From Periweissella beninensis (GTDB taxonomy: Bacteria; Bacillota; Bacilli; Lactobacillales; Lactobacillaceae), in contig NZ_JAFBDN010000003.1 in NCBI RefSeq assembly GCF_016908275.1, positions 62,001 through 126,000 of the forward strand: DNA of 64,000 nt, read 5' to 3'. The translations under genes and the position numbers were made by a program. Below, one piece after another: positions 24,192 through 35,160 of the stretch; positions within the stretch are counted from its first letter, which is position 1, and every line of letters starts with the position of its first letter. The notes below the pieces were generated by a model. The model did not search any database, was not told the origin of the DNA, and saw nothing but the letters and a program-made list of their open reading frames with translations.

Positions 24192-25565
24192 ATGAGTAAA
24201 AAAATTGCACCAGTAAAAAAGAATGATCAGTTCGAAGCGGATATTATTGATTTAACTTATCAAGGAATGGGCGTTGCTAAATTAGGCGATTTTCCAGTGT
24301 TTGTTGCTAATTCAATTCCAGGTGAACGCGTAGTAGTTGGTATTACTAAAGTTGCTAGTTCATATGCTTTTGGACGAGTAGTGAAGGTATTACAAGAATC
24401 AGAAGATCGTAACCACGATATTGATAACGCGCTTGTAACTACAGGAATTGCCCCATTAGCTAATTTGAAATATCCAGCGCAATTAACGTTTAAGCAAAAG
24501 CAAATTCAAGAGTTACTTAAAAAGCAACACATTGAAGCTGAAGTTGCAGCAACGCTTGGTATGGAAAATCCATTTGGCTACCGAAATAAAGCCCAAATTC
24601 CAGTCCGTGAAATTAAAGGTCAAATTGAAACAGGTTTTTATCGGCGCAATTCACATAACTTAGTGCCAATTGAAGATTACTTTATTCAAGATCCAAAAAT
24701 TGATGAAGCTGTATTAATTGTGCGTGATTTATTACGTAAATATCACTTATCAGCTTATGATGAAGTAAATCACCGTGGTGTGGTTAGAACTGTAATGGTA
24801 CGTCGTGGTTACTACTCACATGAAATGATGATTGTTATTGTAACTAAGTCTAAGAAGTTACCAATGCAAGAAGTGCTTGTTGATGAAATTCGCCAAGCCT
24901 TGCCAGAAGTAACTTCAATTATGCAAAATGTAAATCCTGATAAAACCAATGTTATTATGGGTGAAAAGAATAATTTATTGTGGGGTAACAAAGTTATCTT
25001 TGATAATTTACTGGGTTTGAAGTTTGCAATTGGCCCAAATTCTTTCTACCAAGTTAATCCACAAACAACTGAAAAGTTGTACACATTGGCGGCAGAAAAG
25101 GCTGAATTGACAGGTACTGAAACGGTTATTGATGCTTATTCAGGTATCGGAACAATTTCACTTACAATCGCTAAGCATGTGGCCCAAGTATATGGGGTTG
25201 AAATCGTCCCTGGGGCAGTTGATGATGCTAAGCGTAATGCTGACATCAATGGTATTAAGAATGCTAAATTTGTTTTAGGTAAGGCTGAAGAACAAATGAT
25301 CAAATGGGCAGCAGAAGGCTTAAAGCCAGATGTAATCTTCCTTGATCCACCACGTAAGGGCCTAACACCTGAATTAATTGAAGCAGTAGGGATTATGAAA
25401 CCAAAGAAAATTGTGTACGTAAGTTGTAACCCAGCAACTTTAGTTCGCGATTTAGATGAATTTATTAACACTGGCTACCAAATTGATGGAGCTATCCAAC
25501 CGGTTGATCAATTCCCACAAACAACGCATGTTGAGAGCGTAACGGTCCTTGAGCGCCAAAAGTAG
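24192..25565 (+). CDS. rlmCD: 23S rRNA (uracil-5-)-methyltransferase, RlmCD type
   Basis: Methylates 23S rRNA uridines with S-adenosylmethionine. N-terminal TRAM domain (FEADIIDLTYQGMGVAK...IPGERV), central domain, then the Rossmann methyltransferase with DAYSGIGTISL (SAM site), FLDPPRKGL and VSCNPATLVRDL, whose Cys is the nucleophile. The position where RumA-type enzymes carry the Cys ligands of a 4Fe-4S cluster reads GIAPLANLKYPAQLTFKQ without cysteine, so this copy should lack the cluster. 457 residues. It is the last chromosomal gene before the accessory island. Confidence 0.92.
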   Translation: MSKKIAPVKKNDQFEADIIDLTYQGMGVAKLGDFPVFVANSIPGERVVVGITKVASSYAFGRVVKVLQESEDRNHDIDNALVTTGIAPLANLKYPAQLTFKQKQIQELLKKQHIEAEVAATLGMENPFGYRNKAQIPVREIKGQIETGFYRRNSHNLVPIEDYFIQDPKIDEAVLIVRDLLRKYHLSAYDEVNHRGVVRTVMVRRGYYSHEMMIVIVTKSKKLPMQEVLVDEIRQALPEVTSIMQNVNPDKTNVIMGEKNNLLWGNKVIFDNLLGLKFAIGPNSFYQVNPQTTEKLYTLAAEKAELTGTETVIDAYSGIGTISLTIAKHVAQVYGVEIVPGAVDDAKRNADINGIKNAKFVLGKAEEQMIKWAAEGLKPDVIFLDPPRKGLTPELIEAVGIMKPKKIVYVSCNPATLVRDLDEFINTGYQIDGAIQPVDQFPQTTHVESVTVLERQK

Positions 25566-25610: not shown

Positions 25611-25655
25611 GTGTATCTTTTTGTGACCAGTTCCCACAGATAGATACACTTTTTT
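25611..25655 (+). terminator. Terminator after rlmCD, with a repeat copy in its loop
   Basis: GTGTATCT (25611-25618) pairs with AGATACAC (25642-25649), followed by six T. The loop holds the first copy of the direct repeat described for 25623-25835. Confidence 0.65.
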
Positions 25656-25835
25656 GTTGCTCAATCAGAAACGTTGATTTAATAGGCTTTGTCCTTAGTG
25701 GTGATCAGTTTCCACAGACTACCTGCAAAATTGGCTTAATTTCGGGGCGACCAATTCCCGCAGTTAGTGTTGATATGTTCCCGCAGATTGAGTTGATCAA
25801 TTTCCACAAAGGAAGTGACAGTTTCCTACAGTTAG
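25623..25835 (+). repeat. Array of six degenerate ~21-nt direct repeats upstream of the defence-like operon
   Basis: Copies start at about 25623, 25701, 25747, 25770, 25793 and 25815; the last four are spaced 22-23 bases. The core reads GTGACCAGTTCCCACAG, with variants GTGATCAGTTTCCACAG, GCGACCAATTCCCGCAG, TTGATATGTTCCCGCAG, TTGATCAATTTCCACAA and GTGACAGTTTCCTACAG. All run in the same direction. Apart from the rlmCD terminator, these repeats and the promoter fill the 314-base gap between rlmCD and the operon. Confidence 0.8.
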
Positions 25836-25844
25836 ATGTATAAT
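25815..25844 (+). promoter_or_regulatory. Predicted promoter of the defence-like operon, overlapping repeat copy 6
   Basis: GTGACA (25815-25820) is one mismatch from the -35 consensus and TATAAT (25839-25844) is a perfect -10, spaced 18 bases. The -35 is the first six bases of the sixth direct repeat, so a protein bound to the array would compete with RNA polymerase. Confidence 0.6.
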
Positions 25845-25879
25845 TGCCTATCAACTTATTACTAAAGGGGCAGAGTGAT

Positions 25880-26314
25880 ATGAGCGATATTTTAAATTGT
25901 CTGTTAGAGAAGGGAAACTACCCTGAACATCATGTCGCAACTTTTGGTCAAACTTCATTTGATATTATGATTAACGGTAATAAGAAAAAGGTTAGTCATG
26001 GTAAAGGTTTCAGATCATATTTGAATTCTGTTACAGTTATGGCCTTGAGCGAATATATAAATAAGAATGCTCTATATAAGCCGGAGTTTTTAATTATCGA
26101 TACGCCACTTGAAGGGCTATCAGAGAAGTATACTGATAATCCTGATGAAAGCATGAGACATGGCATCTTTGAGCTTTTCATGGATAGATGCAAGAGTTAC
26201 CAGACGATTGTTGTTGAAAATCCGGATCATTTACCAAGTGATATAGATTTTAAACACGAAGATATCAATGTGATTAGCTACGAAAATGAAGAAGGATTTT
26301 TAAAGGAAATCTAG
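25880..26314 (+). CDS. C-terminal fragment of a Rad50/SMC-like AAA ATPase
   Basis: 144 residues from ATG 25880 with an AAGGGG ribosome site. The piece HGKGFRSYLNSVTVMALSEY followed by KPEFLIIDTPLEGLSE looks like the signature helix plus Walker B (LIIDTPLEGL) of AAA ATPases with long coiled coils. Then come SMRHGIFELFMDRC and QTIVVENPDHLP, also found at the C-terminus of such proteins. Walker A and the coiled coil are absent, so it is either a truncated remnant with a secondary start or a stand-alone half that needs a partner. It is the first gene of the operon; XRE follows 9 bases later. Base composition is AT-rich, unlike the helicase downstream. Confidence 0.6.
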   Translation: MSDILNCLLEKGNYPEHHVATFGQTSFDIMINGNKKKVSHGKGFRSYLNSVTVMALSEYINKNALYKPEFLIIDTPLEGLSEKYTDNPDESMRHGIFELFMDRCKSYQTIVVENPDHLPSDIDFKHEDINVISYENEEGFLKEI

Positions 26315-26323
26315 GAGGTTCAA

Positions 26324-26525
26324 ATGCAAATTAGCTATAACAAGTTATGGAAGCTATTAATTGACCGTGGCATGAAGAAAAAAACTGCAAGAAGCCAGTG
26401 GTGTTAGTGCTGCTTCAATTGCTAAATTAGGTCGCAATGTCAATATTACGACTGAGGTATTATTGAAAATCTGTATCGCACTTGATTGCGATATCAGTGA
26501 TATTTGTGAAGTAGAAAGAAAGTAA
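26324..26525 (+). pseudogene. XRE-family HTH regulator with a +1 frameshift at an A7 tract
   Basis: AGGAGG at 26312-26317 precedes ATG 26324. The first frame reads MQISYNKLWKLLIDRGMKKK and then stops early. From the A7 tract (26378-26384) the next frame reads LQEASGVSAASIAKLGRN and then NITTEVLLKICIALDCDISD, a classical Cro/CI-type helix-turn-helix of about 67 residues. Removing one A restores the whole protein. Either the gene is inactive, the tract is a sequencing error, or slippage on A7 yields some full-length product. As the only DNA-binding regulator here, it is the natural candidate to bind the upstream repeat array. Confidence 0.75.
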
Positions 26526-26562
26526 GGGGTGAATTCTCATAGCAGAAGAAAATGAAATCTCA

Positions 26563-27300
26563 TTGTTTGATGAGCAAGAATTCACGGTAGCAGCAAAACC
26601 ATTTGAATTACAAGAAACAATCGAATCGGCTGAACTGATTAAATCAAAAGAACGAGTCCAAAATCATGGTGAGGTCTTTACCCCCAAATGGATGGTGCAA
26701 AAAATGCTATCCGAACCGGCGATTCAAGAGAAAATTAAAGATATTCACGCGACCTTTCTGGAACCCAGCGCGGGGGAAGGGGCGTTCTTGGTCGAGATTT
26801 TGCATCAGCGGTTAACTTATCTTGATCAGCAGGTTAGTAAGGCTAACTGGCCAAAGCAGGCAATCTGGGCGTTGATGAGTATTTATGGTATTGAACTTTT
26901 GCAAGACAACCTTCTTAAAGCTAGGGATGCAATGCTAGAAGTGGTGATTAATCACTACCAAGCAAAGCTGCAAAAGCACCTGAGCGTCAAGACGGAATTC
27001 TATAAGGCAGCTAAGTTTGTGATTGCAACTAATATAGTCCAAGGAAATACGCTTGAGTACACTACAAACGAGGGCCAGCTGATTGAGTTTAGCCATTGGT
27101 GGCCAAGTGATGGAAAGGTTCAACGTGAAGTTTTTACCTACAAGTCGTTATTTAACAATAGTGATATTAATGATATGGGAGCTACGGAAGGACAACTTAG
27201 TTTGTTTGGTGAGTTAGATACAGAAATCAAAAAAGAATACGAAATGTGTGATGTGTTGAAAGTTTACAAGGAGGAACGGAAGAATGAGCGGAGAAGATAA
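26563..27300 (+). CDS. DNA N6-adenine methyltransferase, motif-I half
   Basis: N-terminal part of an Eco57I/N6-Mtase-type DNA methyltransferase. GEVFTPKWMVQKML is the conserved lead-in and FLEPSAGEGAFLVEIL (residues ~65-80) is the SAM-binding motif I; IYGIELLQDNLLKARDAM is motif II. There is no NPPY; that motif lies in the next ORF, which overlaps by 17 bases. The start is uncertain. TTG 26563 is the first standard codon, but the good ribosome site AAGGGGTGA (26524-26532) is spaced for an ATA at 26539, which would add IAEENEIS. An ATG-to-ATA change may have reduced expression. Base composition is richer in GC than the chromosomal flanks. Confidence 0.8.
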   Translation: MFDEQEFTVAAKPFELQETIESAELIKSKERVQNHGEVFTPKWMVQKMLSEPAIQEKIKDIHATFLEPSAGEGAFLVEILHQRLTYLDQQVSKANWPKQAIWALMSIYGIELLQDNLLKARDAMLEVVINHYQAKLQKHLSVKTEFYKAAKFVIATNIVQGNTLEYTTNEGQLIEFSHWWPSDGKVQREVFTYKSLFNNSDINDMGATEGQLSLFGELDTEIKKEYEMCDVLKVYKEERKNERRR

Positions 27301-28312
27301 GAAATTCAAGTTTGATGTGGTGATTGGAAATCCGCCGTATCAGGAAGAAGCGGGAGGTACGAGTTCTAGTGACAAACCTATTTATAATTATTTTATGGAT
27401 GAAGCATATAAAATAGGGGATACTGTCGAACTGATAACTCCAGGACGCTTTCTGTTTAATGCGGGTGCCACACCTAAAGCCTGGAATAGAAAAATGCTAT
27501 CTAATAAAAATGTTAAGGTTCTATATTATGAAACAGATAGCAGTAAAGTCTTTCAAAACACAGATATTAAGGGTGGAGTAGCAGTAACTATTTTTGATAG
27601 AAATCAAGATTTTGGAGAAATAGGAACGTTTACTATATTTTCTGAGTTGAATTCAATTCTAAAAAAGGCGATGCCTAGTATTAAGAAAAATGGCTCATTA
27701 ACGGACATAATTTTCTCTCAAAATAAATTCAATCTTGATAAGTTGAATGCTCATTATCCTGAGTTGAAAAGAACAGATAAGAGGCTAGAGAGCAATATCT
27801 TTAATTTGGATATTTTCACCAATGAGAAAAAGAGTTCTGATGACTTGAAAATATTGGGGGTTATTAAAAATAAGCGTGTTTACAAATTTGTAGATAAATC
27901 ATATATAGATATTGATAAAGCAAATCTATACGACTATAAAGTGCTTCTCCCAAAGTCAAACGGTAGTGGGACTTTGGGAGAAGCAGTGAGCACGCCGCTC
28001 ATCGGCACGCCGCTCATCGGCTACACAAGAACATTTATAGGTGTTGGATCTTTTAAAACCAAGTTTGAGGCAAATGCCGCCCTGAAGTATGTAAAAAGTA
28101 AGTTTGCCAGAGTTATGTTAGGAGTACTAAAGGTTACGCAAGATAATAATCCAGGAAAATGGAAATATGTCCCTCTCCAAGATTTCACCGCAAACTCCGA
28201 TATTGACTGGACTAAATCCATCCCAGAAATCGATCAACAACTATACAAGAAGTACAACCTTTCTCCGGAGGAGATTGACTTCATTGAAACACATGTAAAG
28301 GAGATGGGCTAA
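27284..28312 (+). CDS. DNA N6-adenine methyltransferase, NPPY and target-recognition half
   Basis: 342 residues starting at ATG 27284, behind AAGGAGGAAC and overlapping the previous gene by 17 bases. FDVVIGNPPYQEEAGG (NPPY at 16-19) is catalytic motif IV, which positions the flipped adenine. VELITPGRFLFNAGATPKAWN and KVLYYETDSSKVFQNTDIKGGVAVTIF follow Eco57I-like methylases. The C-terminal half is the probable target-recognition domain and contains a 15-base exact tandem duplication (27991-28020) giving TPLIG twice. With the upstream ORF it makes one complete methyltransferase; together they should modify self DNA. The split with its own ribosome site looks evolved rather than a sequencing error. 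Confidence 0.8.
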   Translation: MSGEDKKFKFDVVIGNPPYQEEAGGTSSSDKPIYNYFMDEAYKIGDTVELITPGRFLFNAGATPKAWNRKMLSNKNVKVLYYETDSSKVFQNTDIKGGVAVTIFDRNQDFGEIGTFTIFSELNSILKKAMPSIKKNGSLTDIIFSQNKFNLDKLNAHYPELKRTDKRLESNIFNLDIFTNEKKSSDDLKILGVIKNKRVYKFVDKSYIDIDKANLYDYKVLLPKSNGSGTLGEAVSTPLIGTPLIGYTRTFIGVGSFKTKFEANAALKYVKSKFARVMLGVLKVTQDNNPGKWKYVPLQDFTANSDIDWTKSIPEIDQQLYKKYNLSPEEIDFIETHVKEMG

Positions 28313-28313
28313 T

Positions 28314-31300
28314 ATGAATGCACCAACAATTAAATCATTCAAAAAGATCATCCCCATGATTTATGCCTATAACACGCCTAATGATATTTCTCATCTGGGT
28401 TGGACGAAGATTGGCTATACCGACCACCAATCTGTCGAAGACCGAATTAGGCAACAAACCCATACTGCGGATGTCAAAGCTGAAATTCTCTGGAAAGGTA
28501 ACGCCCGCTATCAAGATGGCTCAGATGAGACTTTTACCGATCATGATTTTCACTATTACTTAACCAGTAAACGCCATGTTGAACGCAAACCAAAGACGGA
28601 GTGGTTCCACGTCGACGGCTATACTTCCCACCAGTATTTTTATAAATTTACGGAACGGGACTTTAGTGATGTTCAAGGCACCGATGGCACCCAGTATGAA
28701 TTGCGTAAGGAACAGCAACGAGCGGTAGATCAAACCATCGATTACTTCCTTAATCACGGCAATGAGTTCTTGTGGAATGCCAAGCCCCGCTTTGGGAAGA
28801 CCTTAACCACTTATGATTTAGTTCGTCAGATGAACATGCAAAATGTCTTGGTAGTAACTAACCGACCAAGCATTGCTAATTCTTGGTTCGATGACTTTGA
28901 TAAGTTTATTGCATGGCAGACTAACTTCAAGTTTGTGAGTGAAACTGATGCCCTCAAGAATCGACCTGTACTTTCCAGAGATGAATTCATCGACACGATC
29001 TCTGAGGGCAAAGAATATGGACAAATTTCCTTTGAGAGTTTGCAAGGCCTAAAAGGCTCGGTTTACTTTGGCGGTAATTACGATAAGTTGAAATGGATTA
29101 GTGACCTTGAGTGGGATTTGTTGGTAATCGACGAAGCCCATGAAGGGGTTGATACTTATAAGACGGATAAGGCTTTCGACAAAATTAAGCGGAAGTATAC
29201 CTTACACTTAACAGGGACACCATTTAAAGCTTTGGCAAAGGGTAAGTTTGCCTCAGATCAAATCTATAACTGGTCGTATGCGGATGAACAGCAAGCTAAA
29301 CTGGACTGGGATGAAAATCAAGAAGGTAGTAGCAATCCTTACGAAGTGATGCCCCAATTGAACATGTACACCTACCAGGTATCAGCAATGATGGCTGACG
29401 AGTTAAAGGGCAAGGTTAAACTTGATGATGGTGATCAGGTCGACCCAGCCTTTGATCTTAACGAGTTCTTCAAAACAAAGGAAAATGGTAAATTTGTTTA
29501 CGATGAAGCCGTCGACCGTTTCTTGGATGCTCTGACCAAGCAAGAGAAGTATCCCTTCTCAACACCAGAGTTACGACAAGAGCTGGCGCATACTTTCTGG
29601 CTGTTAAATCGGGTCGATAGTGCCAAGGCCCTAGCTAAAAAGCTAAAGGATCACGATGTTTTTGGTGAATATGAAATTGTCTTAGCTGCCGGCGATGGCA
29701 AGCTCGATGATGATCAGTTGAATGAAGATCAGTTGGAACAGGCTAATGAAAAGTCCTTTGATAAGGTCCAGCGTGCGATTGCAACTCACGACAAGACGAT
29801 TACGCTCAGTGTGAGGCAACTAACAACTGGGGTGACTATCAAGCCTTGGTCAGGGGTACTAATGCTTTCCAGCATGAAGAGTCCTTCGGAATACATGCAG
29901 GCAGCTTTCCGGGCGCAAAATCCTTATATTTTCGATCGAGATGGTGAGCTGGTTCAAAAGCAAAATGCTTATGTTTTCGACTTTGACCCAACTAGAACCT
30001 TGACTATTTTTGATGAATTTGCCAACAATTTACTAGAAAAGACGGCTAATGGTAAGGGCACTGCAGAAGAGCATGAGGCCAACATTCGGCAATTATTGAA
30101 TTTCTTCCCGGTAATTGGTGAAGATGAAGATGGTAAGATGGTGGAATTAGATGCCAAACAAGTTATGTCAATTCCACGCCATCTAAAGTCTCAAGAAGTT
30201 GTTAAGCGTGGTTTCATGAGTAACTTCCTCTTTACTAATATCAGCCGAATCTTTAGTGCTCCAACTGAAGTGCGTGAGATTCTGGATGGCTTAGTGACTG
30301 CTAAGGAAGAAAAAAGCAAAAAGAGTCAGTCAGCAATTGAAGGTGCAGAAGACGTTGCTGTTAATGATCAAGGCGAAGTTGAGATTCCTAAGGAACGTGT
30401 GATTGGCAAGTCTAAGGATCTTTTTGGCGATAAGGTTTATAGTGATATGGGACAGCAGGTTGCTGATGCCGTTACTAATACAGATCAAACAGATTTTAAG
30501 TCTGCAGCTAAGGAGATTGCTAAGCAGTTGAATGATTCTGTTGGTAAAGAAGTCGTTAATCGGGTTAGTGACGATTATGGTTTGAGCAAGTCTGAAGCTA
30601 AACGTTATCAAAAGCAAGTAGAAAAGGATACCGAGCAAGCCTTCCATCAACTTGCTGACGAACTAAATGATAAGAAGAAGTTAGCTGAAGTTGACTACAA
30701 GCAGAAACAAGCGGCTGCACGGAGCGAAGATGAACTGCATGAGGCAGATCAGGAATATGAAGCAAGGTCGGAAGCTATCTTACAAGAGTTTACTGAGAAA
30801 GCTCGCCAGCAAGTTCAAAAGACTGTTGCTGATACGCCTGCTAATGTAATCGAACGAGTGGAAAAGCATCAAGAAGAGCAAAAGATGAAGAATGTCGAAG
30901 AGGATACGCGGGCTCACTTACGTGGCTTTTCACGGACCATTCCAAGCTTCATTATGGCTTATGGTGATGAAAACTTAACCTTGCAGAACTTTGATGATTA
31001 CACGGAAGACGATGTCTTTAAAGAAGTAACAGGGATTAGTGAAGATCAATTTCGTTTCCTTCGTGATGGTGGCGACTATGTTGACGAAGCTAGTGGTGAG
31101 AAGAAGCACTTTGATGGGCACCTCTTTGATGAAGTAGTCTTCAACGATTCCATTCAACAATTCTTGGAATTAAAGGAAAAGCTAAGCGACTACTTTAATG
31201 AAGATAACGATGAAGATATTTTTGATTATATTCCGCCGCAAAAGACCAATCAGATTTATACACCAAAAGCGGTAGTTAAGCACATGGTCGATGATTTAGA

Positions 31301-31652
31301 AGCTAATAACCCGGGAATTTTTGCTGATCCTAATAAGACTTTTGCGGACCTTTACATGAAGTCTGGGCTCTACATTACAGAAATCGTCAAGCGCCTCTTC
31401 CAAAACGAGAAGATGAAGGAATTATTCCCGGATGACCAGGAACGCATCGAGCATATTATGAAGCATCAAGTTTATGGTCTGGCTCCAACTCGGATCATTT
31501 ACTTGATTGCAACTAATTATATTTTTGGTTTTGACGAAAGCTTAAAGAATTCAGTGCTTGGTAAATATTTCAAGCAAATTGATGCTGCCGAATATGCGAA
31601 GAATGGAACGCTAGAAGAGGTAATTCAAAAAGAATTTGGAGGTGAGAAATAG
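28314..31652 (+). CDS. GIY-YIG-like nuclease / DEAH helicase / degenerate methyltransferase fusion, 1112 aa
   Basis: Probable restriction motor. Residues ~14-95 (MIYAYNTPN, GWTKIGYTD, FTDHDFHYYL, TEWFHVDG) look like a T5orf172/GIY-YIG nuclease. Helicase core: Walker A variant KPRFGKT (157-163), DEAH (273-276), LTGTPF, RQLTTGVTIKPW and AAFRAQNPY, as in ResIII-type restriction translocases. Residues ~690-880 are charged and helical, likely coiled coil. From ~980, IYTPKAVVKHMV then FADLYMKSGLYITEI mimics the start of an N6 methyltransferase, but motif I has lost its glycines (DLYMKSG 1012-1018). It begins one base after the methyltransferase stop. Richer in GC than the chromosome. Domain assignments come from motifs; the combination is not one I can name. 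Confidence 0.8.
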   Translation: MNAPTIKSFKKIIPMIYAYNTPNDISHLGWTKIGYTDHQSVEDRIRQQTHTADVKAEILWKGNARYQDGSDETFTDHDFHYYLTSKRHVERKPKTEWFHVDGYTSHQYFYKFTERDFSDVQGTDGTQYELRKEQQRAVDQTIDYFLNHGNEFLWNAKPRFGKTLTTYDLVRQMNMQNVLVVTNRPSIANSWFDDFDKFIAWQTNFKFVSETDALKNRPVLSRDEFIDTISEGKEYGQISFESLQGLKGSVYFGGNYDKLKWISDLEWDLLVIDEAHEGVDTYKTDKAFDKIKRKYTLHLTGTPFKALAKGKFASDQIYNWSYADEQQAKLDWDENQEGSSNPYEVMPQLNMYTYQVSAMMADELKGKVKLDDGDQVDPAFDLNEFFKTKENGKFVYDEAVDRFLDALTKQEKYPFSTPELRQELAHTFWLLNRVDSAKALAKKLKDHDVFGEYEIVLAAGDGKLDDDQLNEDQLEQANEKSFDKVQRAIATHDKTITLSVRQLTTGVTIKPWSGVLMLSSMKSPSEYMQAAFRAQNPYIFDRDGELVQKQNAYVFDFDPTRTLTIFDEFANNLLEKTANGKGTAEEHEANIRQLLNFFPVIGEDEDGKMVELDAKQVMSIPRHLKSQEVVKRGFMSNFLFTNISRIFSAPTEVREILDGLVTAKEEKSKKSQSAIEGAEDVAVNDQGEVEIPKERVIGKSKDLFGDKVYSDMGQQVADAVTNTDQTDFKSAAKEIAKQLNDSVGKEVVNRVSDDYGLSKSEAKRYQKQVEKDTEQAFHQLADELNDKKKLAEVDYKQKQAAARSEDELHEADQEYEARSEAILQEFTEKARQQVQKTVADTPANVIERVEKHQEEQKMKNVEEDTRAHLRGFSRTIPSFIMAYGDENLTLQNFDDYTEDDVFKEVTGISEDQFRFLRDGGDYVDEASGEKKHFDGHLFDEVVFNDSIQQFLELKEKLSDYFNEDNDEDIFDYIPPQKTNQIYTPKAVVKHMVDDLEANNPGIFADPNKTFADLYMKSGLYITEIVKRLFQNEKMKELFPDDQERIEHIMKHQVYGLAPTRIIYLIATNYIFGFDESLKNSVLGKYFKQIDAAEYAKNGTLEEVIQKEFGGEK

Positions 31653-31653
31653 G

Positions 31654-33624
31654 GTGAAAGCAGACAGTATTCATTTGTTTGACTTCCTTGAAAATGGAAA
31701 GACCATCTTTGAAATTCCTGTTTTTCAACGAAACTACGAATGGGATGAGCAGCAATGTAGCCAGCTGTTTAAGGATCTGACCATTGCCGCTGAGGATGAT
31801 CAAGATCATTTTATTGGGGCAATTGTCTATGTTGCCGAAACGGGTCGGAAGCTGAGTCATATTTACCGAATCATTGATGGTCAACAACGGTTAATGAGTT
31901 TAATGCTTCTTTTGAAGTCCTTAGCTGATGTAAATGACCAAGTGCGGGCAGAGATTCAAGAGCAGTATTTGACCAACAAATATCTGGAAGAAAATAATCA
32001 TCTCAAGTTGAAACCCGTTGCTCATGATATGGAAGCCTTTGAGGCCGTGATGAATGACCGACTCGATCAGTATAATGATCCTTCTAAGGTAGTCAAAAAC
32101 TATCAATATTTCAAAAAGCGGATCCAACAATCCGAATTCTCAAGTACGGAACTCTATGAGGCCTTGAACCATTTCAATATGGTTTATATAGAGCTGACCA
32201 ATGATGTGCAAGATGAGAATCCGCAGGTGATTTTTGAAAGTTTGAACTCGACAGGTGTATCCTTGTCTGCATCCGACTTGGTGCGTAACTTTCTATTAAT
32301 GAAGCTAGATTCAGATAAACAATCTCGCCTATACCAAGAATACTGGGTTAAAATGGAGAGAATTTTCACAACCAATACCTTTGCAGATTTCATCAGATTT
32401 TACTTAACGATGAAGATGCACAAGATGATTAATAAAGCTAAAATCTATCCGCTTTATAAAGAGTTTTACTATGGACAGGGGTTGGACTCTGAAGAAGCCC
32501 TAGCTGATCTGTATCGGTTTGCCATTTTTTATGATCAATTGATCCATGCTGAGACCGGAATTCAGGAGTTAAATTCAATTTTGCGTCATATTAATGCCAT
32601 GGACAGTCGAGTGGTTTATCCTTACTTTTTCATGATGCTGGAGATGGCTTCAACGGGTGAAGTTAGTCAGGATGATGTGGTTGAAGTTGCTCGGATCATG
32701 GAAAGCTATCTTTTCCGACTGAAGGCATGTCAACTCCCTACTAATGGGTTAAATCGCATGGTAATTGCCTTATGTGATAAGACAAAGGCAGCTGGCGATT
32801 ATCGGACAAGGTTAGTTTCATTACTGAATACTTCCTTCCCGGATGATAAAAAATTTGCAGACAGCTTGATGAATGTTAACTTGTACAGTCTACGAAATAA
32901 TCTAGCTAAATTGGCATTAGTGGTTCTAGAAGAATCGCGGACTAAGGAAACCATCGACTTTGATGATGCTCAGGTTGAACACATTATGCCACAACGGCTA
33001 AACAATGACTGGCGAATTGAACTCCCTAATGCTAACCGGATTAATGAAGAATTAGGTGGGGTAATTGGGAACCTAACGTTAACTAAATATAATCAGGAAA
33101 TGGGAAATAAGGTATTCAGTGAGAAACGAGAGGTTTATCAAACATCCAATGTCAGCCTAACCAGAGAAATTGCCACTGATTATTCAGTTTGGAATAAGGA
33201 TAGCATTGTTAAACGGACGGAACAGCTTACCCAAGAATTGATTGCAATCTTCCCAAAACCAGTTGATACACTTCAAGTTGAAAGTATGACTGGCGAACAT
33301 GCAATCACGGAATCGATTGATATTACTGGTAAAAAGCCAACTAGATTAACCATTAACGATGAAGATATTCCGTTAGACTCTTGGCGTAAGATGTTGATTA
33401 GTTTCATGGAGTATATTTGGCGATTAGATAGTCGTAACTATGAGAAGATTAAAGGTGACAGTTCTTTGAATAAGATGCTGTTTGCTAGTCAACGGTCGCC
33501 AGAAATATTGGATAATGGAACCAGTATTGAAACCAACTTCTCAGCTAATGTGGTTTTAGCTTTGATTTCTAAGATAGCTGAAATCTGTGATATCGCCGAT
33601 AAAGTATCATATACGATTAAGTGA
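31654..33624 (+). CDS. DUF262-DUF1524 (GmrSD-like) nuclease with extra C-terminal domain
   Basis: 656 residues. GTG 31654 is chosen because GGAGGTG lies at 31639-31645, inside the end of the helicase gene. DUF262: FEIPVFQRNYEWDEQQ, IIDGQQRLMSLMLL (Asp75, ParB/Srx-like NTP site) and ENPQVIFESLNSTG. DUF1524: VEHIMPQRLNNDW (His443) and IGNLTLTKYNQEMGNK, forming an HNH-type His-Me nuclease site. The final ~110 residues (ITGKKPTRLTINDE onward) are an additional domain without a family I recognise. GmrSD-type proteins are type IV restriction enzymes cutting modified phage DNA, so this likely adds a second nuclease activity to the operon. Confidence 0.82.
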   Translation: MKADSIHLFDFLENGKTIFEIPVFQRNYEWDEQQCSQLFKDLTIAAEDDQDHFIGAIVYVAETGRKLSHIYRIIDGQQRLMSLMLLLKSLADVNDQVRAEIQEQYLTNKYLEENNHLKLKPVAHDMEAFEAVMNDRLDQYNDPSKVVKNYQYFKKRIQQSEFSSTELYEALNHFNMVYIELTNDVQDENPQVIFESLNSTGVSLSASDLVRNFLLMKLDSDKQSRLYQEYWVKMERIFTTNTFADFIRFYLTMKMHKMINKAKIYPLYKEFYYGQGLDSEEALADLYRFAIFYDQLIHAETGIQELNSILRHINAMDSRVVYPYFFMMLEMASTGEVSQDDVVEVARIMESYLFRLKACQLPTNGLNRMVIALCDKTKAAGDYRTRLVSLLNTSFPDDKKFADSLMNVNLYSLRNNLAKLALVVLEESRTKETIDFDDAQVEHIMPQRLNNDWRIELPNANRINEELGGVIGNLTLTKYNQEMGNKVFSEKREVYQTSNVSLTREIATDYSVWNKDSIVKRTEQLTQELIAIFPKPVDTLQVESMTGEHAITESIDITGKKPTRLTINDEDIPLDSWRKMLISFMEYIWRLDSRNYEKIKGDSSLNKMLFASQRSPEILDNGTSIETNFSANVVLALISKIAEICDIADKVSYTIK

Positions 33625-33637
33625 GGTGCTTAGGTAT

Positions 33638-34240
33638 ATGGCTGAGATTATTGAAAAAATGACACCAGAAAAATTTGCTGATAGATTTAGTGAGTTGATG
33701 ATGGATCAAAGAGTCCATAATATTTTGGTGAGGGGATACTTTGATGATGATAAAGTATTATTAACTTTCGGAATTTTAAATGATTTGCCACATTATAAAA
33801 ATGGAACATTAGTAATAGGCAATACGCGAGTTCAAGATGAAAAAATTTTTTTGGAACGTGGACTTCGTAAGACATTACCTCGTTTTAATTTAAGAGATAT
33901 TTTTAAAATTTACGGATTGAATATTCAATTTACACAATGGGAAAAGAATAGGGACTTTCGATTTAATGACAATAAGGATTTTGCAATCTTTCATCCAGTC
34001 CAAACAGCGATAAGTGATATTTCAGAACGAGATAAATTTAGAAAAGTATTGGCAAACTCAAAGGCTAGAAAGAACATTTTGATAACCACCAATGATTTCA
34101 ATAATGATCCGGAAAAAATATATGATATTGTTAACGCAGTGCTAATTTTGGATACAACAGCTGTAAATGAAAAGAATAAACAAACCTATGCTACTATAAA
34201 AGCTAATTTAGCAGCTGATGGTAAAGAAGAGCCATATTGA
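33638..34240 (+). CDS. Unknown 200-aa protein closing the defence-like operon
   Basis: ATG 33638 follows the DUF262 gene by 13 bases, with GAGGTG at 33622-33627 as ribosome site. It begins MAEIIEKMTPEKFADRFSEL and contains VHNILVRGYFDDDKVLLTFGI, LVIGNTRVQDEKIFLERGLR and FHPVQTAISDISERDKFRKVL. It has no membrane segment, signal peptide or catalytic motif I recognise. The alternation of predicted strands and helices suggests a compact alpha/beta protein. It is more AT-rich than the four genes before it. Position at the end of the operon suggests an accessory or regulatory role, but that is inference only. Confidence 0.75.
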   Translation: MAEIIEKMTPEKFADRFSELMMDQRVHNILVRGYFDDDKVLLTFGILNDLPHYKNGTLVIGNTRVQDEKIFLERGLRKTLPRFNLRDIFKIYGLNIQFTQWEKNRDFRFNDNKDFAIFHPVQTAISDISERDKFRKVLANSKARKNILITTNDFNNDPEKIYDIVNAVLILDTTAVNEKNKQTYATIKANLAADGKEEPY

Positions 34241-34659: not shown

Positions 34660-35160
34660 TATTTACTAGCTAAATTATAACATTGATTTTTTGAATCATT
34701 GTTATAGCGCACTCAACAGGCACTAAGTACGCTATAACATAGTAGCGTTCATTGAGTTCCTGTTAGTTAATGAAATACTAAAATAGTGAGACTGGGTACG
34801 ATAAGCAAGCACTCAGCTTAGTTAAATTGCTGTAGAAATTAATCCCTAGAATACTGCAACAAACTGCACGACCACAACGTTTGAGGTGATGTGTGATTAG
34901 GATAAGGCGGACGCCACATGTGGAGACGGTTTGTTTAATATCAAGGGTGAACCCTAAATAGAATAAAGAGTATTGAATTATAAGGCTTATTCAGGGACTA
35001 TCGTTAAACGGTAGTTTTGGCTCTGGATAAGCCTTTATTTTTATGCTGTAAAATGTCTTGGTGGGAACAGGTCCACTGATTAAGGTTGACACTAATGTTT
35101 TGATAACGGCAAAAAGGAACCCTCTGAACCCTACTATAGCACAATAATTTTGATTGAAAC
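34660..35160. other. Non-coding stretch with multiple hairpins
   Basis: No convincing gene. Visible structure: GTTATAGCG/CGCTATAAC around 34703-34738; AGGGT-GA-ACCCT near 34944; and a compound hairpin at 34982-35035 (AAGGCTTATTCAGGG with CTCTGGATAAGCCTT) that encloses a second stem ACTATCG/CGGTAGT and ends in TTTATTTTT. The piece 34780-35040 could be a structured RNA with a Y-shaped terminator. Its right end carries an inverted, imperfect copy of the repeat found upstream of the operon (35058-35080). Confidence 0.4.
34982..35041 (+). terminator. Y-shaped hairpin with T run
   Basis: The outer stem 34982-34996 with 35021-35035 encloses an inner stem 34997-35003 with 35009-35015, and T-rich sequence follows. 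It looks like the 3' end of a transcript from the non-coding stretch. Confidence 0.55.

Follow-up and report, generated by a model that had tools for sequence, protein, structure and literature searches.

Type ISP restriction enzymes, such as LlaGI and LlaBIII, unite a nuclease, a superfamily 2 (SF2) translocase, a coupler, a methylase and a recognition domain, with an N-terminal Mrr nuclease and the full methylase on a single polypeptide. They translocate along DNA at the expense of ATP, and cleavage requires two sites placed head to head. Here we describe a locus of Periweissella beninensis in which a comparable set of domains is distributed over three adjacent genes, M1, M2 and HEL, followed by a gene for a DUF262-DUF1524 protein of the GmrSD family; it lies in a stretch of 64,000 nucleotides (contig NZ_JAFBDN010000003.1, positions 62,001 to 126,000), which we call the window (Table 1). 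When HEL and M2 are read together, the Type ISP order is recovered: an SF2 translocase is followed by a coupler and a methylase, though the HEL chain has only the N-terminal half of the latter. The nuclease differs, being of the GIY-YIG type in HEL and Mrr in Type ISP; no Mrr domain appeared among the families listed for the 42 HELs (25 of 26). The methylase differs as well, since it extends over M1, M2 and the C-terminus of HEL (HEL-C), with motif I in M1, NPPY in M2 and a pseudo motif I in the motor chain, so that two or three chains (three in the window) take the place of one. The trio is not a Type ISP system by membership and probably works like one. Motif names and catalytic assignments for the methylase, helicase and GIY-YIG motifs are what we take them to be.

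Other named systems are less close in organization. Type IIG enzymes join endonuclease and methylase in one chain and have no ATP motor, whereas a helicase core is present here and the chains are split. PADLOC nevertheless recognizes parts of the trio: M2 matches REase_MTase_IIG PDLC03626 (1.2e-26), as does HEL (2.6e-14), and M2 also matches MTase_II PDLC03375 (7.1e-36). PADLOC places the first profile under type IIG enzymes and treats the second as a methylase on its own; neither describes the set of M1, HEL and M2. The BREX components PglZ and BrxC were not found among the six operon open reading frames (ORFs) scanned. A preliminary description of the locus had held that its gene order matches none of the type I, II, III, ISP, BREX, DISARM and Druantia systems, which stands as far as membership in Type ISP is concerned but misses the closeness to LlaBIII and the PADLOC type II and IIG matches. 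An M1-M2-HEL system is named in none of the titles and abstract openings listed in the open-access literature searched, a search whose scope excluded REBASE.

The reading that we favour, by a modest step beyond even chances, is that M1, M2 and HEL constitute an ATP-dependent restriction-modification system, in effect a Type ISP enzyme taken apart, in which M2 is shared, and that the DUF262 gene was acquired separately. We read M1 as the supplier of the S-adenosylmethionine (SAM)-binding half, HEL-C as a pseudo-half and M2 as the half common to both. M2 carries the NPPY catalytic strand as well as the domain for DNA recognition. Paired with M1, which would provide the intact SAM-binding half, it would form an N6-adenine methyltransferase that shields the host site; with HEL-C, the same M2 would form the recognition end of a restriction complex and find the unmethylated site, whereupon the SF2 motor would translocate and the GIY-YIG domain would cut. 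Because a single M2 would be shared, both activities would have the same target. A 15-bp repeat in the M2 recognition domain could retune methylation and restriction together, and the DUF262-DUF1524 protein might serve as a type IV-like nuclease against phages with modified DNA that escape the core. What the analysis shows directly is the gene set with its fusions, motifs, predicted folds and recurrence, together with the variation of the repeat; methylation, restriction, the sharing of M2, a change of specificity and action on modified DNA are inferred.

The trio recurs, and the core gene set is therefore beyond chance. HEL found relatives in 51 of 395 Lactobacillales genomes at E <= 1e-50, with a best place of at least 851 bits in 37 of them (36 besides its own), and in 83 plasmid records, 31 of which showed at least 80% coverage in one place. 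M2 is present in all 37 non-self Lactobacillales HEL loci and M1 in 36, as called with hidden Markov models trained on these same loci; the sole M1 miss is L072, whose HEL matches only from residue 201. When named genomes were searched with the alignment of HELs, at least 155 relatives were confirmed, 80 of which were kept. Where more than 2.3 kb of upstream DNA was available (66 loci), M1 and M2 were each found in 64, the exceptions being L106 (no M1), L168 (no M2) and L181 (neither). The titles of this set name Bacillota, Bacteroidota, Actinomycetota, Alpha- and Gammaproteobacteria, Treponema, Riflebacteria, Opitutales, Chloroflexi and the archaeon Methanocorpusculum; as many of the records are metagenome bins, lone odd placements may be contamination. 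Since the genes co-occur elsewhere, the proposal of a restriction operon does not fall on that ground. The LmuB fragment and the 200-amino-acid (aa) protein at the two ends of the window cluster gave no tblastn match in the 42 other HEL loci searched.

The genes of the trio mostly abut or overlap one another. The trio occurs as three separate genes in the order M1, M2, HEL, as a fusion of M1 and M2 followed by HEL, as M1, HEL and M2 in that order, and as M1 followed by a fusion of HEL to M2. Among 37 Lactobacillales loci, M1 is fused to M2 in 15 (and in one more with M2 in two pieces) and HEL to M2 in 8, while the separate orders M1, M2, HEL and M1, HEL, M2 account for 3 and 10. Both kinds of fusion join M2 just before FDVVIGNPPY, in canonical methylase order, and in a Variovorax plasmid locus (L005) HEL-C is fused to M2 with the nuclease-helicase on a separate chain. 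A 586-aa M1-M2 fusion (L172) was modelled with a mean predicted local distance difference test (pLDDT) score of 77.5 and a predicted template modelling (pTM) score of 0.71. The PDB matches to this model, CamA (2.8e-12, template modelling (TM) score 0.46), PglX/BrxX, M.BseCI, LlaBIII (9e-8), DrdV and MmeI, are adenine methylases with a recognition domain.

It is possible that the three proteins instead form one obligate M1:M2:HEL complex, in which M1:M2 is the sole methylase, HEL-C is a relict dock (much as HsdR docks on a type I methylase), partners are never swapped and restriction needs M1. We consider this, the main rival, unlikely, though it survives better than the other alternatives. A mere dock does not need HEL-C to be continuous with M2 in full-methylase order, as is seen in two helicase families and in L005; what speaks for an obligate complex is that the trio genes stay together and that an M1-M2 fusion beside HEL is the commonest arrangement (31 of the 80 named loci, more with variants), with HEL-C persisting next to it.

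In L129 (1946-2979) a second copy of M2, in two pieces on the opposite strand, lies upstream of the trio. Shuffling of recognition domains by a recombinase was considered and dropped, as none of six neighbouring genes of about 300 aa that were scanned is a recombinase: four belong to the defence families AbiH (L108), Abi_2 (L044 and L147) and Mrr (L053), one has DUF4357 (L157) and one is without a match (L175). The remaining neighbours of this size were judged by eye only.

ResIII, GmrSD_N and GmrSD_C match in the window itself; T5orf172, of the GIY-YIG superfamily, matches 29 of 42 aligned HELs at E <= 0.1 (best 5.7e-8). MUG113 matches 11 of the 42 at the same threshold (best 5.7e-6). On the strength of these two families we assign the HEL N-terminus to the GIY-YIG superfamily. 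In this domain Y17, Y19, K32, G34, T36, R44, D76 and E96 are invariant in 42 of 42, and the model has the order strand-strand-helix-strand-helix. No GIY-YIG fold appears among the best 50 Foldseek and best 50 VIA matches listed for the HEL model (mean pLDDT 81.9, pTM 0.69), which are filled by the helicase. The best Foldseek match is LlaBIII (5.9e-13), and by VIA LlaBIII spans HEL residues 124-1112 (Z 16.9, 526 aligned); the motor scores Z 20.3 against RadD and Z 17.9 against LlaGI.

HEL-C retains motif X, and its motif I reads K-S-G (K1016, S1017 and G1018, invariant in 42 of 42). The preliminary description had called this end a dead methylase. A pseudo motif I is indeed there, but its K-[S/T]-G is conserved, and fusions of M2 occur both to HEL-C, with which M2 is then continuous, and to M1. 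A second helicase family points the same way. It accounts for 16 places at 275-328 bits in the HEL search, seven of which were fetched (L185-L191). Its members are 1455-1491 aa long, with an N-terminus unlike that of HEL and at most reminiscent of DUF4145 (Pfam gave no match there in L189). In all seven the pseudo motif reads K-T-G, M2 is part of the helicase chain, and M1 is a separate gene next to it. Strict retention of K-[S/T]-G in 42 of 42 HELs and 7 of 7 members of the second family, rather than decay, would also suit a scheme in which HEL-C and M2 make the real methylase with a working motif I, M1 being an activator or a second SAM site, and in L189 the Eco57I profile covers HEL-C and M2 in full; yet M1 has the canonical motif and is fused to M2 in many loci, such a fusion having a methylase fold by model, and we regard this scheme as improbable.

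In the recognition domain of the window M2 a 15-bp unit stands twice, the copies being exact. Tandem repeats of two or three 5-aa units are found in 32 of 105 distinct M2-bearing ORFs, some of them partial, and in 31 of the 32 the repeat lies 105-112 residues from the C-terminus (L170 has a shifted frame). The 12-nucleotide (nt) cores are identical within the gene in 27 of the 32, against 0.27 expected if codons are drawn independently from the usage of the same gene; because the rows include close relatives, these are not 27 independent events. The units vary between genomes and are thus homogenized within each. Copy number varies too: the window M2 has two units and its sister in L036 three, and the L040 M2, 96.8-97.7% identical to those of L041 and L047/L155 (one genome), differs from them by one unit (three against two). 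L172 has no such repeat; in its model the corresponding site coincides with, or adjoins, a loop of low confidence (residues 466-478). An inverted repeat within each 15-bp unit looked covarying at first and was dropped on third-position pairing of 16 and 13 of 42, against 10.3 and 10.3 by permutation (P 0.03 and 0.20). In Type IC HsdS proteins (EcoR124I/II), the copy number of an in-frame TAEL repeat alters target spacing (PMC3874165). Both are in-frame tandem repeats of variable copy number in a specificity protein, the M2 unit being 15 bp (5 aa) within a single recognition domain and the TAEL unit 12 bp between two. By this analogy the M2 repeat is a possible specificity switch. It is tempting to go further and to propose a widespread class of partner-exchange restriction-modification systems, in which M2 forms a methylase with M1 and a nuclease sensor with HEL-C, the two cannot diverge, and 15-bp slippage switches both at once; this we put forward tentatively, short of even chances.

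The DUF262 protein, which bears DGQQR and EHIMP motifs, has the DUF262 and DUF1524 domains and His-Me/HNH motif of the GmrSD family, whose type IV enzymes are characterized by cleaving modified DNA only. Among proteins with solved structures it has distant relatives by sequence (9jfl, 4e-10; SspE, 0.009). A DUF262 gene is adjacent on the same strand in 5 of the 37 Lactobacillales loci (L036, L038, L045, L048 and L054; gaps -17 to +18), and likewise in 5 of the 80 named loci (L110, L124, L138, L150 and L159; gaps -16 to +65), making nine distinct other loci, as L150 and L048 are the same genome; L045 and L048 are close relatives. In L124 it stands between M1 and M2. It is 1.4-2.5 kb distant in L144 and L146 and near but non-adjacent in L039 and L056. 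Pfam finds both GmrSD_N and GmrSD_C in L110 and L124, and GmrSD_N alone in L159. With named-set seeds, DUF262 forms the largest non-core neighbour cluster (12 ORFs, counting the one in the window, three that lie close by without being adjacent and the duplicate from L048/L150; the clusters that follow in size have 8). The window protein matched 23 of 395 genomes at E <= 1e-60, eight at 565 bits or more and the rest at 281 or less, and six of these eight (its own included) lie beside a trio; the remaining two are in L099, where the copy is truncated and a relative of the 200-aa protein comes after it, and in L100, where a lone copy lies in the vicinity of gatB-dagK-rumA. Recruitment was probably repeated, since the trio-adjacent genes do not form one group in the DUF262 tree (though the positions of L110, L124 and L159, on long branches, are uncertain) and adjacency changes 8 times on the HEL tree (11 marked leaves of 118). 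Elsewhere AbiH (L108), Abi_2 (L044 and L147) and Mrr (L053) take neighbouring positions, Abi_2 of L044 between the M1-M2 fusion and HEL. The place is thus one for cargo genes, of which DUF262 was seen most often. The DUF262-DUF1524 gene is thus an optional add-on, and its standing as an invariant part of the system is rejected because it accompanies a minority of loci. In L159 (14209-14427) a partial second HEL C-terminus follows the DUF262 gene, as if cargo entry had duplicated the HEL end. That the whole cluster is merely a chance neighbourhood in a defence island seems very remote: LmuB debris, an unlinked 200-aa gene and the varied defence genes around the trio elsewhere would fit it, but the conservation and fusions of the trio, and DUF262 genes that overlap their neighbour or lie no more than 65 bp away at nine distinct other loci, do not.

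The preliminary description had seen modification-dependent and modification-protected logic joined in one operon. The GmrSD-like gene is there, as an optional gene, and the pairing was already known: BrxU is a GmrSD-family enzyme within BREX (PMC8565348), and TgvAB (PMC11411939) and RloF (PMC4619093) lie in type I operons. There, too, a gene with DUF262 (mostly with DUF1524) belongs to a methylation-based operon, as an internal or a last gene; the locus differs in that the host is the split M1-M2-HEL system and more than one DUF262 lineage has been recruited.

Several observations weigh against a Type ISP-like system with a shared M2 and a separately acquired DUF262 gene. The GIY-YIG domain of the window HEL itself gives no Pfam match, and what we take to be the usual catalytic Glu of GIY-YIG nucleases may be Asp (D76). 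The likeness of HEL to LlaBIII holds domain by domain, with a TM-score of 0.24 and a root-mean-square deviation of 29 by Foldseek (17.9 by VIA), and when PDB chain sequences were searched with HEL no relative emerged (best E 0.37). The likeness of the M1-M2 model to CamA is also by domain, with a TM-score of 0.46. M1 and HEL-C may be present together in a single complex instead of alternating. The repeat is lacking in 73 of the 105 M2 ORFs, and an effect of its number on specificity would hold by analogy. Finally, DUF262 stands beside a minority of the loci, and other defence genes are also found next to or inside the trio.

Table 1. Features of the Periweissella beninensis locus (window coordinates).
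Feature	Position	Strand	Basis
LmuB C-terminal fragment, 156-aa ORF	25844-26314	+	PADLOC LmuB 4.8e-55, profile 453-602 of 605
Helix-turn-helix/XRE (Cro-like) regulator gene, frame disrupted	26324-26525	+	by eye; three-frame translation
M1, SAM-binding half of probable N6-adenine methyltransferase	26563-27300	+	GEVFTP, LEPSAGEGAF; no NPPY
M2, NPPY catalytic half and target-recognition domain	27284-28312	+	Pfam Eco57I 2.2e-18
Two identical 15-bp tandem units (TPLIG x2), M2 recognition domain	27992-28021	+	probable variable-number tandem repeat
HEL, 1112 aa: GIY-YIG-type nuclease, SF2 helicase, coiled coupler, pseudo-methylase N-half	28314-31652	+	
GIY-YIG-type nuclease domain, HEL ~residues 9-100	28338-28613	+	T5orf172/MUG113 in family, invariant residues, model
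SF2 helicase core, HEL ~residues 128-587	28695-30074	+	Pfam ResIII 6.1e-16; RadD, LlaGI structural matches
HEL-C, methylase N-half, pseudo motif I DLYMKSG (residues 1012-1018)	31206-31649	+	
DUF262-DUF1524 (GmrSD-family) nuclease, 656 aa	31654-33624 (TTG start 31636)	+	Pfam GmrSD_N 9.2e-39, GmrSD_C 5.5e-23
200-aa protein, not core	33638-34240 (longer ORF from 33587)	+	no Pfam, PADLOC or PHROGs match

The operon is real, with M1, M2 and HEL as its core. The seven co-directional, tightly spaced genes of the preliminary description all lie on the + strand, spanning 25844-34240, and it was right to see a restriction operon of non-canonical type in which a split methylase, a GIY-YIG-helicase and a GmrSD-like nuclease come together. 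M1, M2, HEL and the DUF262 gene overlap or abut (gaps of -17 between M1 and M2, +1 between M2 and HEL, and -17 between HEL and DUF262 with the TTG start). Judged from the sequence, GTG at 31654 is the more likely DUF262 start than TTG at 31636, and a 200-aa product of the last gene is more likely than that of the 217-aa ORF. M1 has no clear ATG start and may begin with TTG at 26563 or, about 24 nt further upstream, with a non-standard codon. In both the window (26533-26570) and L036, an ATA codon is found where the ribosome site points for M1, perhaps as a weak start that limits the methylase; in L036 it is preceded at 9 nt by an in-frame GTG.

The LmuB fragment, the frame-disrupted XRE gene and the 200-aa ORF are outside the core system. 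The ATPase C-terminal fragment noticed earlier exists, and since the LmuB profile matches at the C-terminal quarter of the protein only, it is a Lamassu remnant; Lamassu comprises a complete LmuB and a partner gene. The XRE-like gene does break frame, near an A-run, and its link to the operon is uncertain. The 200-aa protein has one sub-cut-off NCBIfam match and relatives in 6 other genomes of the 395 searched, with no core gene beside them in the stretches viewed. We therefore reject the seven genes as one system, given this result and the lack of tblastn matches to the LmuB fragment and the 200-aa protein in the 42 other HEL loci. By eye, relatives of the 200-aa protein (L200-L204) adjoin an apparent phage terminase region in L202 and an apparent type I restriction operon in L204, and in L203 such a relative comes after a rumA-like gene. 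HEL loci follow rumA in the window (24192-25565 and downstream), L036, L055 and L069, and the lone DUF262 copy of L100 is another defence gene of this region. In streptococci, rumA is known as a target of integrative and conjugative elements (PMC4701971). Six degenerate 18-nt repeats at 25623-25832, the last four spaced 22-23 nt, resemble a stretch in the rumA 3' end (25506), with one inverse near-copy at 35059. The 261-bp repeat stretch is present once in its own genome, and with one mismatch allowed no such repeats were found in L036, L055 or L069. At first look they resemble transposase sites; a reading as transposon ends was not adopted.

Restriction systems must aim cutting and marking at the same site, and a shared half that fits two partners would, if true, be a simple solution. 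A repeat in that shared half would, if it acts as proposed, permit the target to change in one step without self-attack. The DUF262 add-on is a further pairing of defence against unmodified DNA with defence against modified DNA. The shared-half design and its repeat are of more interest than the mixture of seven genes.

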